This document shows, in pieces, positions 3,281-9,349 of a stretch of DNA of 64,000 nucleotides. The position numbers and the translations under genes were made by a program. The DNA is from Commensalibacter papalotli (ex Servin-Garciduenas et al. 2014) (lineage in GTDB: Bacteria; Pseudomonadota; Alphaproteobacteria; Acetobacterales; Acetobacteraceae): NCBI RefSeq assembly GCF_000527695.1, contig NZ_ATSX01000001.1, forward strand, positions 496,001 to 560,000, read 5' to 3'. Under the pieces are notes generated by a model. That model saw only the letters and a program-made list of their open reading frames with translations. It searched no databases and was not told the DNA's origin. The first letter of the stretch is position 1. Each line of letters opens with the position of its first letter.

Positions 3281-5728
3281 GTGCCTGCTGGTGAAATTGT
3301 CGATCCAACCAAGGATTCAGTTAATCGTCTATGGCGTTTGTTTCTGCGGATTGGTATTCCTATTTTAGGCGTAATTTTGGTTGTGGTGGTTGTGGTTGGC
3401 GTGACACTGCATTCTTATCACAGCACAAAATCAGGAATTTTAAAACTAACTCATGTTATTTTAAAAACAGAGCAATCTCGTGTTTCTCAGGAGGTGATGA
3501 ACTATCTAAGCCCTGCAACAGTCAGTAGTAAACTGGTTGTTGATATGCTGAGCCATATTCCAACTGAATATGAATCTGGCATGTTTTATACTTATGTGAT
3601 GAGCAGTCTGCGTCAAACAAAGCAATTACAGTCTTTTTACTTGGCTAGTGAAGATGGTAATTTTACGATGATTGAACGTGTCGTGGACAAGCCTAACGAA
3701 GTAAGAGTAATAACATTAAAAGCTGATCAGCAAGGCGGACAATTCTTAGAAGAATATGCAACAGTTGATGGTAAAAAAATCAGTAGAAAATCCCTTCCAG
3801 CAAACGCATATGACCCCAGAGATCGCTCTTGGTACAAACAAGCTATGCAAAGTGGTAAGCTTGTATGGTCACCACCAACATTAATGCCTTCCAAAAAAGG
3901 GTTAGTGATTACGGCTTCCATTCCCTATAAAGATCGTGATGGTAAAAAAGGTGTTTTTGCTGTGAGTATTTCGTTGCAGCAATTAACAACATTCTTAGGT
4001 TCTTTGAGTATAAGTGAACATGCGCAAGCGATTATTGTTGATCGTCAAAAAAATGTTATTGCCTCACCGGGGTTATTATTACAATTCGGTGATAATGAAT
4101 GGAGCCCTGATAAAAATAAGATTGATGCAAAGTATAATCCTGTGATTGCTCGTGCTTATGATCAATTCTTAGTAAATGGTGTTGGTATTCGTTCTTTTAA
4201 AATGGAAAAAGATGCTATTCCTGAGAAAAGCTCATTATCATCGGTAGTACCACCTCAAAGTATTGAGGGTAATTATATTAGTATTACTTCACAATTGCCA
4301 GAATCTGTTCAAAGATGGGTTGTATTAATTGTTATTCCAGAAAGTGACTTTTCTCATTTTGCTGTCACAGGGGGTAAACAAAATCTGTTATTCTCGTTAC
4401 TGGTAGTGGCTTTGGCGGCAGCGATGGCTGGTGTCTTGATTTATCAAGGTCACAGAATGGATAAATTAGGGCAACGGTTTAAATATGTTAAAAACATTTC
4501 TGAACGAGAAAATAATGCTATTGAAATGATTGCTTCAACTCCAGAGGTTTTTGATCCTAGAAATGAGGCTTTGATTTTAACAGAAGGTGTATGTAACCTT
4601 GTTTCAGCGAAAAGGGTGAGTGTTTGGCATATTGCTGAAGATCAAAAAACGTTAATTTGTAATGATCTTTATACTATAGAAGATGGAAATCATGCCGAGG
4701 GAGTTCAGTATTCTATTCAAGAAATTCCAGATTTCTTCGAAGCGATTAGTGAAACAGAAACATTGCAAGTCGATGATGCGGCGAATGATTCTCGTATTGC
4801 TCAGTTTTATAAATTGTTTATGCGCTCTTCGGAAACGAAATCTGTGTTAATCACACCTGTTCTAGGTAAAAAGGGAACAATTGGTGCTGTTATTATTGAG
4901 GATACGCCTCATTTACATAGTATTAGCCATATAGCTAAGATCTTTGCTGGATTAGTCGCGATGCGTTTTGTTGCTGCACAAGTGCAATTTGAGGAACAAG
5001 ACCATGTGCATGGTAAAGATATACAGCATGTATCAACTTCGATAGACAAACTAACGGATGATATACAAGATAATTTATCCACTTTAAAGCCAGAGGATAA
5101 AACAGAATTTTTGCTTGCCCCTGGTTCTGCACGATATAACAATATTCAATTTGAAACCCTAGATAAAGACGAGCAACAAGGGATCTATCCAGCAGTTTCG
5201 GTAATGAATATTGCCTTTAGCGGTTATTTAACTTCTGATATAGAAGAGGCATCAAAGCTAATAGCTCCTGTCAAAGAACTAGTTGTTGTTTTACAAGATA
5301 TTGCTAAGAAGTATGGTTTATTCTACGTGAAAATTATGGGGGGTCATTTGGTTGCTGTTGCAGGGTGTACAAAAGAACCTGATGTAACTGCTCCTATTCG
5401 TTTGGCACATGCGGCATTAGATATGCGTGCTGCTTGTTTAGAAATGATTCCTGGTATGGGGGCAGAATCTAATTTCGGAATAGGAATGGATGTTGGGCCT
5501 GCAATTGGAACATGGTTTGGTAAAGAACCTAGAACTTTCAATTTGTGGGGACCAACTATTGGGATGTCTGCGTTAATGGCAAACATGGCAACAGATGGTG
5601 GGGCTGTACAAGTTACACAAAGTGCTTATGCATCGTTAAGAAATGATTTCTTATTTAGGCCCAGAGGGACCTTTTATATTCCAAAGGTTGGTATTTCGCA
5701 TACATTTATTCTTGCTGGTAGACGATGA
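3281..5728 (+). CDS. Membrane sensor with Cache and GAF domains and a degenerate class III cyclase domain
   Basis: 815 residues, GTG start after a GGGGG-containing ribosome site. Order of parts: transmembrane helix (about 17-43); periplasmic double-Cache domain (about 50-345, with the typical 'YDPRDRSWYKQAM' block); second helix (about 368-388); GAF domain (about 425-570); C-terminal class III nucleotidyl cyclase fold (about 635-815). In the cyclase the first metal-binding Asp segment (family 'FADIVGFT') reads 'MNIAFSGYLT', the second ('GDG') reads 'GGH' near residue 686, and the Asn/Arg helix after 'WG' reads 'WGPTIGMSALM' without the usual Asn and Arg. The domain is therefore probably inactive as a cyclase and may be a regulatory or binding module. 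Its stop overlaps the start of the permease gene (ATGA), so it belongs to the transporter operon. Confidence 0.85.
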   Translation: MPAGEIVDPTKDSVNRLWRLFLRIGIPILGVILVVVVVVGVTLHSYHSTKSGILKLTHVILKTEQSRVSQEVMNYLSPATVSSKLVVDMLSHIPTEYESGMFYTYVMSSLRQTKQLQSFYLASEDGNFTMIERVVDKPNEVRVITLKADQQGGQFLEEYATVDGKKISRKSLPANAYDPRDRSWYKQAMQSGKLVWSPPTLMPSKKGLVITASIPYKDRDGKKGVFAVSISLQQLTTFLGSLSISEHAQAIIVDRQKNVIASPGLLLQFGDNEWSPDKNKIDAKYNPVIARAYDQFLVNGVGIRSFKMEKDAIPEKSSLSSVVPPQSIEGNYISITSQLPESVQRWVVLIVIPESDFSHFAVTGGKQNLLFSLLVVALAAAMAGVLIYQGHRMDKLGQRFKYVKNISERENNAIEMIASTPEVFDPRNEALILTEGVCNLVSAKRVSVWHIAEDQKTLICNDLYTIEDGNHAEGVQYSIQEIPDFFEAISETETLQVDDAANDSRIAQFYKLFMRSSETKSVLITPVLGKKGTIGAVIIEDTPHLHSISHIAKIFAGLVAMRFVAAQVQFEEQDHVHGKDIQHVSTSIDKLTDDIQDNLSTLKPEDKTEFLLAPGSARYNNIQFETLDKDEQQGIYPAVSVMNIAFSGYLTSDIEEASKLIAPVKELVVVLQDIAKKYGLFYVKIMGGHLVAVAGCTKEPDVTAPIRLAHAALDMRAACLEMIPGMGAESNFGIGMDVGPAIGTWFGKEPRTFNLWGPTIGMSALMANMATDGGAVQVTQSAYASLRNDFLFRPRGTFYIPKVGISHTFILAGRR

Positions 5729-6744
5729 AGCATTTAAACGGTTTTGAACAAAAATCCTTTGAAAAACAAGATGATAAAAATCGAATAGAGACTATGCTTG
5801 CCGATTTGAATAAAGATGGCATAGATGACGTAGAGCAATATGTTAAAAATATTCGTAACCGTGAATCTCAAGAAACTCAACGTCTATCATTTCGGTTAAA
5901 AATGGTAGAAGAGGGGCGATTTGCATGGCTGCAAAAAATCGCGATTATTATCTTATGGTATCTTCTTCCTATATTATATGTTGTTGGTGAAAAAACACGC
6001 AGTTATTTTCGCTTTTTACTTGGTGTACTGGCAGCTTCATGGGGGATATTGGTGGAAAGCGCCTCGCCAATAACATGGCGCCGTACAGTAAAATATGAAT
6101 TCAAAAGATCTTTGGGGCAAGTTGTTTGTGGAGGTTTTTTTAGCACATTTTTTACGGCAACTTTGGCTGGGTTAGCTGTGGTGTCTCAAGCAATTTTTTG
6201 GTTGGGAGCCGCAGGATTAACCAAGATGACAGGGCCTATTTTAATTACCGTGTTAGTTAGAGAGGTTGCTCCTATTCTTGTGGGTATGATATTGCTTGGT
6301 CGTAATGGTATATTGACGGTTACAGAATGCAGTTTGTTGGCAATGGGAGGTCAGTTGAAATCTTTGACTACGATGGGAATTGATCCTTTTATAACCATTG
6401 TTTTACCTAGAGCATGGGCTTTCACAATCGGCAGTTTTACTTTGGGAATGATTTTTGGAACAACATCATTATTTATGGGATATGTCGTAACGTATGCTTT
6501 GGGAACAATGCAAGATTCTATATGGACGTTTTATAGTAATATTTTATCTGCAATGTCCGTAGCTGACTATGTCCTGGTTCCATTAAAGTTTGTCGTTATG
6601 GGATTTATGGTTGGAGTTGGTTCCTGTATTACTGGAATGAATGTCAAAGTTGACGACGAACCTTCTACTTTATTGCCTAAAGGTTTTACTCGTGGAATAA
6701 TGTTGATTATGGTTGTTAATATTTTGTTTACGTTGGATTTTTAA
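5725..6744 (+). CDS. MlaE-type ABC transporter permease with N-terminal extension
   Basis: 339 residues. From about residue 90 onward it is an MlaE/YrbE permease: 'GQVVCGGFFSTFFTATLAGL', the 'VLVREVAPILVGMILLGRNG' helix and 'EVGSMKV'-like region represented here by 'ECSLLAMGGQLKSLTTMGIDP', and a C-terminal set of hydrophobic helices. Such permeases sit in the inner membrane and move phospholipids with an MCE protein. The first 75 residues are an extra hydrophilic, cytoplasmic segment containing 'DLNKDGIDDVEQY' (residues 27-39), which looks like a D-x-N-x-D-G calcium-binding loop. The usual E in the 'VREVAPI' segment is kept. It overlaps the sensor gene by four bases and is followed after four bases by the ATPase-like gene. 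Confidence 0.9.
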   Translation: MKHLNGFEQKSFEKQDDKNRIETMLADLNKDGIDDVEQYVKNIRNRESQETQRLSFRLKMVEEGRFAWLQKIAIIILWYLLPILYVVGEKTRSYFRFLLGVLAASWGILVESASPITWRRTVKYEFKRSLGQVVCGGFFSTFFTATLAGLAVVSQAIFWLGAAGLTKMTGPILITVLVREVAPILVGMILLGRNGILTVTECSLLAMGGQLKSLTTMGIDPFITIVLPRAWAFTIGSFTLGMIFGTTSLFMGYVVTYALGTMQDSIWTFYSNILSAMSVADYVLVPLKFVVMGFMVGVGSCITGMNVKVDDEPSTLLPKGFTRGIMLIMVVNILFTLDF

Positions 6745-6748
6745 AAGA

Positions 6749-7441
6749 ATGGCAAATAAGATATTATTAGAAGTTCATGAAGCAAAACCATCTTTTGAAG
6801 AAAACTACTTGCCGCCTGTTGCGTTTAACCTAAAAGTCAGAGCAGGCGATTGTGTTATTATAGAAGCTCGTGATCTTGAAGTTGCATCTGCGTTGGCAGA
6901 TTTATGCACTGGTATGGTTCTATTAAGAGAAGGCAGCGTACATTTTAAAGGTTTAGATTGGTTTGCTTTAAAAGAACCACGTTTATCGGCTCTGCGGGGG
7001 AATATTGGTCGCGTCTTCCAAAGGAATGGATGGATGGATATGTATTCTATTGCGATTAATATATTACTGCCTTCGTTGCACCATACAAATATTGATGAAG
7101 AAAAACTGGCAGATCAAGCAATGGTTTTGTGTCATAGATTTGGATTGCCAGGGCTTCCTATGGATACTCCAAGGGAGGCAACAGTGATTGATTTGGCACG
7201 CGCAGCATGTGTACGCGCTTTGTTAGGAAAACCTGACTTGTTAATATTAGAATATCCAGCAGAAGGATCCTCTGCTGAATTAATGTCTCCTTTACTTGAG
7301 ATGTTAAATACTGCACAAAATAGAGGGGTGGGTATTCTTTGTTTTACTCGCCAACTAAGTTTGTGGGATGATTACAAAGAACGTGTAACGCAATGGATGC
7401 GTTTACAAGAAAAAGGTTTAACCTCAATACGGCTGGGATGA
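6749..7441 (+). CDS. MlaF-like ABC subunit lacking ATPase motifs
   Basis: 230 residues. I chose the ATG at 6749 (M-A-N-K), four bases after the permease stop; an in-frame ATG at 6713 would overlap the permease. The overall pattern is that of an MlaF-like nucleotide-binding subunit, with 'GNIGRVFQRNGWMD' as Q-loop (Gln 91) and 'LARAACVRALLGKPDLLILEYP' region as the helix leading into Walker B (shown here in full only for identification; key residues 149-170). But the Walker A position (about 39-47) reads 'EARDLEVAS' with no Gly-Lys-Ser/Thr, the LSGGQ site reads 'REATVID', Walker B ends in Glu-Tyr instead of Asp-Glu, and the switch His is replaced ('FTRQLSLW'). The frame is intact. It is probably a non-hydrolysing structural subunit. 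Confidence 0.75.
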   Translation: MANKILLEVHEAKPSFEENYLPPVAFNLKVRAGDCVIIEARDLEVASALADLCTGMVLLREGSVHFKGLDWFALKEPRLSALRGNIGRVFQRNGWMDMYSIAINILLPSLHHTNIDEEKLADQAMVLCHRFGLPGLPMDTPREATVIDLARAACVRALLGKPDLLILEYPAEGSSAELMSPLLEMLNTAQNRGVGILCFTRQLSLWDDYKERVTQWMRLQEKGLTSIRLG

Positions 7442-7442
7442 A

Positions 7443-8420
7443 ATGTTTAATAGTAAACGATATACAAAAACACGGCAGCTATTTCAGTTAAGATACGCCA
7501 ATGAATGGACGGGTGGGCTGGTATTACTCTGTCTATTGGCATTTGTTGGGGCCGTCATTGAGGCTGGCGTTCTAAGAGATTGGATGACGCCCGCATCAGA
7601 ACTGAATATTATATTGCCTCAGACTGGGGTGGATAATTTATCTGTGGGTGATAATGTTGAGGTTTTTGGGATTAATGCAGGAACAATTAAAAAAATCAAT
7701 GTTAATTCTGACGGTGGGTTGTCCGCTGTTGCGGCGATTGATCCCCAATTAACCACGTTTATTCGTAGAGATAGTCAAGCAACCATTAAAAGGCAATTTG
7801 CAGTCGCTGGGGCTGCGTATGTTTCCATTACTCGTGGGTATAGCACAAAATTAAATTGGAAATATGCTGTATTGGTAGCCAAGACAGAACCAAACCCTGC
7901 TGATCAAATTTCTCAAATGGTTATGCAAATTCATGAACGTATTGTGCCAACAATGGACAGTGCTAAAAATATGATGGCATCTTTGGAGATGATTGTAGAG
8001 GGTATTCAACAAGGTAAGGGAACTGTTGGTCAGCTAGTGAATAATGATGAGCTTATACGTCGTGCTGAAAATATGGTTCAAACTTTGAATAATATTATTG
8101 ATCAATTACAACCGATCGAAGAAAATCTTAATCATGTTGTAAAACATGCTGATCAAATGGTTGCTAATTTCGGTAAAGTTTCTAAAGATCTTTCCAAAGC
8201 TTCTCCTAATTTGGTACCTATTACGAAAAATCTAGTTCCAATTAGTAAGAATGTTAAAAATACAACTGAACAATTGCCAGCGATGATGATTCAGCTACAG
8301 TCAACCGTGGCAGATTTGCAAAAATTAATTGTTCAAGTCAAAGGTCTATGGTTGTTAGGTGGAAATGGTAAAGAACCACGTAAATCGAAACGTTTACCTG
8401 CACGAGAGGTCAGACCATGA
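7443..8420 (+). CDS. MCE/MlaD family substrate-binding protein
   Basis: 325 residues. One transmembrane helix (about 24-46, 'GGLVLLCLLAFVGAVIEAGVL' region) anchors it in the inner membrane. The MCE domain follows at about 52-135, recognisable from 'VDNLSVGDNVEVFGINAGTI' and 'FAVAGAAYVSITRG'. The rest is a long helical, weakly amphipathic region with 'VVKHADQMVANFGKVSKDL', similar to the C-terminal helices of single-MCE proteins that form a hexameric lipid tunnel. It starts one base after the stop of the ATPase-like gene and overlaps the lipoprotein gene by four bases. It is the expected lipid-binding partner of the MlaE-type permease. Confidence 0.9.
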   Translation: MFNSKRYTKTRQLFQLRYANEWTGGLVLLCLLAFVGAVIEAGVLRDWMTPASELNIILPQTGVDNLSVGDNVEVFGINAGTIKKINVNSDGGLSAVAAIDPQLTTFIRRDSQATIKRQFAVAGAAYVSITRGYSTKLNWKYAVLVAKTEPNPADQISQMVMQIHERIVPTMDSAKNMMASLEMIVEGIQQGKGTVGQLVNNDELIRRAENMVQTLNNIIDQLQPIEENLNHVVKHADQMVANFGKVSKDLSKASPNLVPITKNLVPISKNVKNTTEQLPAMMIQLQSTVADLQKLIVQVKGLWLLGGNGKEPRKSKRLPAREVRP

Positions 8421-9349
8421 GGATATTATATAAAAACTTTACCATATTAATCCCTCTTTTACTTGGAATGGCAGGTTGTGGCGGTACAGAGCCTCCTGAA
8501 CCGACACGAGATGACCCTTTTGATCGTACGATGGATGTAGCGGACGAAGCAGTTTATTATGATCAACTGCAACAAGCAGAGATAAATTATAAAAAATCGT
8601 TTGATTATGCTTTGACCAGTGATGACGTTGCTAATATTGATGACGCTGGGTATAATCTAGCGACTATACAGTTAGGTTTAAATAATACTCAGGACGCACT
8701 GCAAACGGTTGTGCTAACAAATAATGAGTTGCGTATAAGAGGGCAAGAAAATAGCCCTCAACTTGATCTTGTCAGAGCAGCAATTTTATATCGTATGAAC
8801 CGTTTAACTGAGGCAGCTCAAGCAGCACTAATGGCTGAGAAAAGTAAGCATGAAGATATTCAAGAACGTTCTTATTTTTTATCAGCGTTAATTGTAAATG
8901 ATCAAGGAGATATAAATGCCCTTGGCCAATATGTACAAAAACTTGATCAGCTTTTGATTAATGGAAAACCCAAAAAAGAAGAAGAAAAAAGCTGGAAGGC
9001 TGATCAACAAGAACTGCACGCTTTGCTATCTTATAAACAAGGGCAATACCCTCAGGCCATGACTGCAGCCAAAACAGCGCAAGATATACGACGTGAACAA
9101 GTTGAATATCGAGCTATGGTCAGAACATTGGCATTACAGGGGCAGATTAGTGAGGCGATGAAGGATTTTGTTGCGGCTGCTCAGTTTTATGTGAGAGCAG
9201 GAAAAAGTGCTTTATTGTTGAAAGATTATCCTGATGCTAAAAAATATTTGGATCGTGCAACCAGTTTGCATGCTGACCCGATAACTTATCAATTGGCTTC
9301 TGATGCTTTGCTTGTTTTAACTAAAAAAACAAAGAAAACATCAAAATAG
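8417..9349 (+). CDS. Lipoprotein with TPR-like helices, last gene of the MCE operon
   Basis: 310 residues. The N-terminus is a lipoprotein signal with lipobox 'GMAGC' (Cys about residue 22) followed by Gly-Gly, which does not suggest inner-membrane retention. The mature part is rich in helix pairs: 'YDQLQQAEINYKKSFDYAL', 'LATIQLGLNNTQDALQTVV', 'AAQFYVRAGKSALLLKDY', 'DAKKYLDRATSLHADP', which read as degenerate tetratricopeptide repeats. ATG overlaps the stop of the MCE gene (ATGA). By position it may be the outer-membrane partner of the transporter, where other systems use MlaA or PqiC-type lipoproteins; that role is inference. Confidence 0.8.
   Translation: MRILYKNFTILIPLLLGMAGCGGTEPPEPTRDDPFDRTMDVADEAVYYDQLQQAEINYKKSFDYALTSDDVANIDDAGYNLATIQLGLNNTQDALQTVVLTNNELRIRGQENSPQLDLVRAAILYRMNRLTEAAQAALMAEKSKHEDIQERSYFLSALIVNDQGDINALGQYVQKLDQLLINGKPKKEEEKSWKADQQELHALLSYKQGQYPQAMTAAKTAQDIRREQVEYRAMVRTLALQGQISEAMKDFVAAAQFYVRAGKSALLLKDYPDAKKYLDRATSLHADPITYQLASDALLVLTKKTKKTSK

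Follow-up and report, generated by a model that had tools for sequence, protein, structure and literature searches.

A conserved pseudo-ATPase encoded with an MlaE permease in acetic acid bacteria is probably a clamp on an MCE lipid complex and not its motor

The window analysed here is a stretch of 64,000 nucleotides from the acetic acid bacterium Commensalibacter papalotli (contig NZ_ATSX01000001.1, positions 496,001 to 560,000 of the forward strand), and the gene under study stands third in a row of five genes that lie close together or overlap and that encode a receptor, an MlaE-type permease, the protein of interest, an MCE protein and a tetratricopeptide repeat (TPR) protein. Its product is an ATP-binding cassette (ABC) nucleotide-binding domain (NBD) by predicted fold, from which the catalytic motifs are lost, and its status as a pseudo-ATPase is strongly supported by sequence comparison. 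We propose that this conserved pseudo-ATPase probably serves not as a motor but as a clamp, structural or regulatory, on a co-evolved MCE lipid complex. The computed basis for this proposal is the fold, the family-wide loss of motifs, purifying selection, the conserved gene order and a changed coupling helix in MlaE. The gene and its former motifs are listed below; this genome has two normal MlaF proteins, with GGSGSGKS or GGSGCGKS, LSGGM, DEP and the switch His, and these served as the motif reference.

6749..7441, plus strand: pseudo-ATPase of 230 aa from the ATG at 6749, with an ABC nucleotide-binding fold and no catalytic motifs
6863..6889, plus strand: former Walker A, residues 39-47, EARDLEVAS, by alignment; MlaF has GGSGSGKS there
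6989..7012, plus strand: residues 81-88, ahead of the Q-loop; ALRGNIGR, a motif specific to the family (consensus ALRGRIGR)
7178..7192, plus strand: former signature, residues 144-148, ATVID; LSGGM in the MlaF of the same genome
7235..7255, plus strand: former Walker B, residues 163-169, DLLILEY; E-Y in place of D-E
7349..7351, plus strand: former switch histidine, Arg201, by alignment to the MlaF of the same genome

The frame runs open from end to end, with no interruption in the window copy, at the coordinates given in a preliminary description of this DNA. That description had also reported the loss of Walker A, the absence of LSGGQ, a Walker B ending in Glu-Tyr instead of Asp-Glu and an arginine in place of the switch histidine, and alignment to MlaF bears out each of these replacements. 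In the former Walker A the position of the lysine is taken by Ala46, and the helix at this site is predicted to start early, at residue 43.

The AlphaFold model of the 230 residues (predicted local distance difference test, pLDDT, 91) has an ABC nucleotide-binding fold of the LolD/FtsE/MlaF kind, and sensitive comparison matches the protein to solved chains of ArtP, FtsE and MlaF with E of 1e-8 to 1e-10; a non-ABC fold is ruled out by the predicted structure and the structural matches. The Pfam ABC model gives the protein 18.2 bits, below its cut-off of 25, and across the whole genome (2.33 Mb in 12 contigs) it makes 48 matches at E 0.01, none of them at this gene. At E 0.001 this model matches only 6 of 55 members of the pseudo-ATPase family, so annotation may hide the family; the NCBIfam MlaF model matches 24 of the 55 at E 0.001 or better. 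On the window protein the NCBIfam models score 54.5 bits for FtsE, 41.1 for LolD and 31.4 for MlaF, the last of which does not reach the MlaF equivalog cut-off of 441 bits. The protein had been called MlaF-like in the preliminary description; the name suits its position, encoded with MlaE and an MlaD-type protein, and its fold, but by profile score MlaF is no nearer to it than FtsE, LolD or DevA. A special kinship to MlaF is likewise unsupported by a FastTree phylogeny of 26 pseudo-ATPases and 29 canonical NBD entries of the same genome (27 segments, and the two MlaF proteins MlaF1 and MlaF2, each of which duplicates one of the segments), in which the pseudo-ATPases form a single clade on a long branch with support of 1.0 and without a resolved sister group.

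The loss of the motifs extends through the family. Searching with the single sequence at E 1e-15 recovered homologues in 61/200 genomes of the Acetobacteraceae, and a 47-row profile gave matches in 132/200 genomes of the order, of which 11 hold ordinary ABC proteins only, leaving 121 by a count made by hand; family members score at least 159 bits, and ordinary ABC proteins among the matches listed at most 85. From a scan of named genomes 86 loci passed and 80 were kept. A single-protein scan of genome contigs gave no match. The 61 loci of the first set and the 80 named loci overlap in organisms, and the homologues amount to 145 rows with 128 distinct sequences, mostly from Acetobacteraceae. 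A P-loop (GxxGxGK[ST]) is present in none of the 145 rows, while both MlaF proteins of the genome, used as positive controls, possess it. The string SGG occurs in three rows, never at the signature position, and hhhhDE in one (L033), off the Walker B position. In ATPases adjoining ordinary MlaE loci of the class, the P-loop is found in 15/15 and LSGG with DEP in 14/15; these controls are the 14 best-scoring ordinary loci and one of G339, a genome from another family of the class, only 15 ordinary MlaE places having been opened.

Some of the replacing residues are themselves conserved. Asp148, at the former signature, occurs in 60/61 loci of the first set, 80/80 named loci and 3/4 further rows, and Glu168, which replaces the Walker B Asp and is followed by Tyr169 in the window protein, in 57/61, 79/80 and 4/4; Arg stands at the switch position in 32/61, 68/80 and 2/4. 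The glutamine of the Q-loop, which the preliminary description had noted as remaining, is indeed kept in the window protein, but it is no feature of the family (21/61 and 10/80). The mean column entropy was compared between 49 pseudo-ATPases, obtained by dropping the truncated rows L063 and L172 and thinning rows more than 70% identical, and 16 canonical MlaF sequences. The latter were chosen by P-loop, SGG and DEP (L216 fell out), and their low entropy at the motifs is therefore partly by construction; the high values of the pseudo-ATPases there, and their low value at residues 81-88, are not. The P-loop is the most variable of the stretches compared in the pseudo-ATPases, with 2.49 bits against 0.40 in canonical MlaF, and the signature has 1.91 against 0.00, whereas residues 81-88 have 0.39 against 1.72, the lowest of the stretches compared. 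Positions that are invariant or nearly so in the pseudo-ATPases and variable in the canonical set include Trp71, Arg83, Gly84, His112, Pro134, Gly135 and Pro137; Asp148 stands in place of an invariant canonical residue. Because the Q-loop and the helical subdomain face the permease by homology, the new conservation probably sits at the permease interface. The conserved Asp148 and Glu168 could also be taken to mean that the protein binds ATP or another ligand in an unconventional manner, through these residues and the arginines of ALRGRIGR. We consider this very improbable, as the former phosphate loop is without the glycine pattern, is the variable stretch described above and is predicted to turn helical early.

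Purifying selection on the pseudo-ATPase is strong. In 24 hand-chosen pairs of loci, with values for which dS lay outside 0.05-2 discarded before medians were taken, the median ratio of nonsynonymous to synonymous substitution rates (dN/dS) is 0.09 for the pseudo-ATPase (22 of the 24 pairs usable), similar to the 0.096 of its permease partner MlaE (23 pairs); the receptor has 0.082 (20), the TPR gene 0.152 (18) and the MCE gene 0.068 (23), the lowest of the five; one MlaD value (0.447, from L115/L116) stems from an over-long frame. A decaying pseudogene or a sequencing artefact could be suspected from the decayed operon of L063 and from several named drafts with short frames, for example L172, where four of the five genes are affected. 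We give this explanation practically no credence: the window frame is open, the pseudo-ATPase frame falls below 220 aa in just one of the 80 named loci, and the identical motif loss recurs in the 128 distinct sequences. Decay or frameshift is ruled out by dN/dS and the census of homologues, none of which retains a P-loop, and the preliminary description was right to favour a conserved pseudo-ATPase over decay. It had given two observations that would refute it, orthologues in sister species with normal Walker motifs and a frameshift in the window copy, or a non-ABC fold, and neither was made. The TGA codons seen within the match in some genomes of one genus proved, in L046, L052 and L053, to be the regular stop codon of the gene, with which the match ends.

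The permease has changed as well, at the site where an NBD would be expected to dock.

5725..6744, plus strand: MlaE-type permease, 339 aa; PF02405 106.6 bits, cut-off 22.5
6346..6378, plus strand: coupling-helix stretch GGQLKSLTTMG, assigned by position; Lys212 at the canonical invariant Asp, from an alignment of 26 subfamily and 17 canonical MlaE

On its own profile this MlaE subfamily scores 326.9-371.3 bits, and other MlaE proteins among the matches listed at most 114.4. The coupling helix between TM2 and TM3 connects MlaE with MlaF in MlaFEDB, according to the available part of PMC7790496. The Asp of E-[IV]-D-A, a criterion defined in this analysis from the 17 canonical MlaE, is present in 17/17 of these and in 1/26 of the subfamily, where Arg or Lys takes its place in 18/26; the G-[IL]-D-P and P-R positions downstream are mostly retained. 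As far as sequence can tell, this argues for a docking site on MlaE that is retained but re-fitted, and speaks against the simple borrowing of a standard MlaF. Borrowing of another ATPase had been raised in the preliminary description, together with a search for a second mlaF; the search found two normal MlaF genes elsewhere in the genome, with motifs intact. One of these might drive MlaE, either alone or paired with the pseudo-ATPase in a mixed dimer. Such sharing of one ATPase is known in mycobacteria, where MceG works for both Mce1 and Mce4, according to the available part of PMC9947336. We judge a borrowed motor to be unlikely: it is weakened because the coupling helix of MlaE, and with it the docking surface, has changed too, and a mixed dimer would, by general knowledge of ABC proteins, have no complete composite ATP site. 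The genome holds, separately, a normal MlaF-MlaE pair at L065:4186-5786 and, at L066:4503-7991, a cluster in which a long MlaE, an MlaF and an MCE protein are joined by a small protein that starts like a lipoprotein.

The remaining three genes of the operon are as follows.

3281..5728, plus strand: receptor, 815 aa, with dCache sensor, GAF and class III cyclase-like domain (about 5195-5713), catalytic residues lost
7443..8420, plus strand: MCE (MlaD-type) protein, 325 aa; PF02470 41.1 bits, cut-off 25.1
8417..9349, plus strand: TPR protein of 310 aa and probable lipoprotein, with lipobox-like LLGMAGC close to the N-terminus, read by eye

All five genes lie in order on one strand in 77/80 named loci, a count of order and strand and not of length, short frames occurring in L111, L125, L137, L141, L148, L159, L164 and L172. 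The three exceptions are L171, which ends at a contig end, L116, where a frame is over-long, and L100, whose contig of 4.5 kb contains neither MlaE nor receptor. Among the 61 loci of the first set, many of which span only 3.7 kb, MlaE and the MCE gene are found in all 61, the receptor gene in 60 and the TPR gene in 49; the receptor gene also adjoins in 79/80 named loci. The MCE protein is predicted to consist of one N-terminal helix, an MCE barrel and a helical tail of about 150 residues, from a weak model (pLDDT 63.4 overall and lower in the tail) that was used for domain order only. The TPR matches of the window copy are all below the cut-offs (best E 3e-5) and rise above them in the relatives L176 and L080. 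Last in the operon and with its lipobox-like start, the TPR protein is a candidate for the outer-membrane end of an MCE conduit.

The receptor scores 57.2 bits for dCache_1, 50.4 for Guanylate_cyc (PF00211, cut-off 21.9) and 23.5 for GAF, and the solved structures closest to it are chains that bear the name adenylate cyclase. Catalysis by class III cyclases uses two metal Asp together with a transition-state Asn and Arg. None of 123 receptors, which overlap in organisms as the ATPase rows do and from which frames below 700 aa were left out, has all four of these residues, and the window protein has Gly, Gly, Gly and Leu. The first metal Asp is found in 90/123, the second in two, both in two, and the Asn or Arg in 12. 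By these known residues the cyclase domain appears clearly lost for catalysis, although less completely than the ATPase. The receptors of L060 and L064, which keep both metal Asp and lack the Asn and Arg, are possible intermediates in the loss of cyclase activity. No other class III cyclase match occurs in the genome, and therefore no active class III partner was found there to complete the receptor. Divergent loci L078 and L079 carry MlaE, pseudo-ATPase, MCE and TPR genes with no recognised receptor gene next door, which makes the receptor the usual and not the obligate partner.

A signalling adaptor is one way to read this association: pseudo-ATPase and pseudocyclase would form a sensory module, and MlaE and the MCE protein would be its receptor or scaffold and not a transporter. 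The near-constant presence of the receptor gene, its degeneracy as the sole class III match of the genome and a dN/dS as low as that of MlaE are in its favour. We nevertheless find it improbable, as the MCE gene is the most constrained of the five, the MCE and MlaE domains exceed their Pfam cut-offs, and L078 and L079 hold the other four genes without a recognised receptor. A further, tentative reading is that the ABC-type MCE transporter is, throughout the family, a sensor-gated, ATP-independent lipid conduit, in which NBD and cyclase receptor are both pseudoenzymes and the coupling geometry of ABC proteins is reused as a signal switch; we put it forward as a possibility that is somewhat less than even.

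The named loci belong to Komagataeibacter, Novacetimonas, Gluconacetobacter, Acetobacter, Asaia, Gluconobacter, Swaminathania, Ameyamaea, Bombella, Parasaccharibacter, Commensalibacter and a few metagenome-assembled genomes (MAGs). The ATPase is also dead in L080 (of G339) and in the less certainly placed MAGs L173, L174 and L176. The occurrence of the system in L176, a MAG labelled Deltaproteobacteria, and in L080 suggests transfer or mislabelled bins. The MlaE subfamily was found in 5/289 genomes of the class and 6/398 of the phylum, even samples that are a subset of all genomes, and only in the family of the window and in G339. No version of the operon with a working ATPase was seen with the MlaE profile in these 289 and 398 genomes or with the pseudo-ATPase profile in the 289, and the search for an active ancestor ended with the lone member from outside the family, L080, which is dead too. 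Judged by title and abstract start, no paper listed in searches of an open-access library gives an account of an MlaE-linked pseudo-ATPase or of a receptor-MlaE-pseudo-ATPase-MCE-TPR operon. The system can be described as an MCE/ABC transporter that has conserved a dead NBD and in most cases is accompanied by a dead cyclase receptor.

Several known systems share parts of this arrangement. ABC transporters with one degenerate nucleotide site, such as CFTR and TAP, retain one working site; they share the loss of catalytic residues in an ABC domain, but here it is the only NBD of the operon that has lost its motifs. Compared with E. coli MlaFEDB, the window operon is without the Walker A, signature, Walker B and switch motifs and the C-terminal extension of MlaF, shows no STAS (MlaB) domain by Pfam in its five genes, has a changed MlaE coupling helix and gains a receptor and a TPR gene. 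The Brucella Mpc system (MpcEFDA) likewise encodes a compact permease, ATPase, MCE protein and partner (MpcA) together and is proposed to span the membranes, but its ATPase is of the MlaF type and its permease bears a STAS domain, as described in the available part of PMC12436622. An Mpc-like cluster with an intact MlaF lies separately in the genome studied here (L066), where the STAS and lipoprotein labels are a reading by eye. Pqi and Let are MCE systems whose membrane protein is described without an ATPase domain in the same part of that source; they use PqiA or LetA membrane proteins, whereas in the window operon the permease is of the MlaE type and a dead ABC subunit is retained. In mycobacteria, Mce1 and Mce4 are MCE transporters that share MceG instead of each having its own ATPase (PMC9947336, available part), but the window operon still contains an ATPase gene, though a dead one.

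We propose the following mechanism. The pseudo-ATPase most likely still docks on the co-encoded MlaE permease and, judging from its residues, would no longer bind or split ATP in the usual way. MlaE, pseudo-ATPase, MCE protein and TPR protein would together form a lipid complex from the inner to the outer membrane, in which the dead NBD may hold the shape of the permease and relay signals to it, acting as a clamp that is both structural and regulatory. The dCache-GAF-pseudocyclase receptor is a candidate input and may determine the state of the pseudo-ATPase. Lipids would move passively along a gradient, or with energy from a source other than the pseudo-ATPase. A passive transporter and a regulatory clamp are the two other mechanisms raised in the preliminary description, and either may hold. 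Complementation fails in E. coli when MlaF carries Lys47Ala or Glu170Gln, according to the available part of PMC7367683, and for this reason an MlaFEDB-type machine with the pseudo-ATPase as its sole NBD should not run as an ATP-driven pump.

Some observations weigh against the clamp. Docking on MlaE is suggested by the operon and by co-change alone, and the C-terminal extension that E. coli MlaF needs to stay with MlaE (PMC7367683, available part) is missing: residues 2-230 of the model align to 4-230 of the 265-residue MlaF chain, where the protein ends, so docking would have to differ. The sequence may leave room for a non-standard nucleotide binding. The TPR gene was recovered, with the window protein as query, in only those 49 of the first 61 loci, and the receptor is not recognised beside L078 and L079. 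The operon has decayed in L063 (G126), where fragments of MlaE, pseudo-ATPase and MCE gene remain, which indicates that loss of the system is possible.

In which direction Mla-type systems move lipids, and with what energy, is under debate. The acetic acid bacteria hold an MlaFEDB-like machine without catalytic motifs, whose dead subunit is kept under strong selection, and this allows the movement of lipids by MlaE and MCE proteins to be tested without ATP, as well as the roles of an NBD beyond hydrolysis. If the proposal is true, this would be a rare case of an ABC transporter for which the operon encodes no NBD other than a pseudoenzyme.
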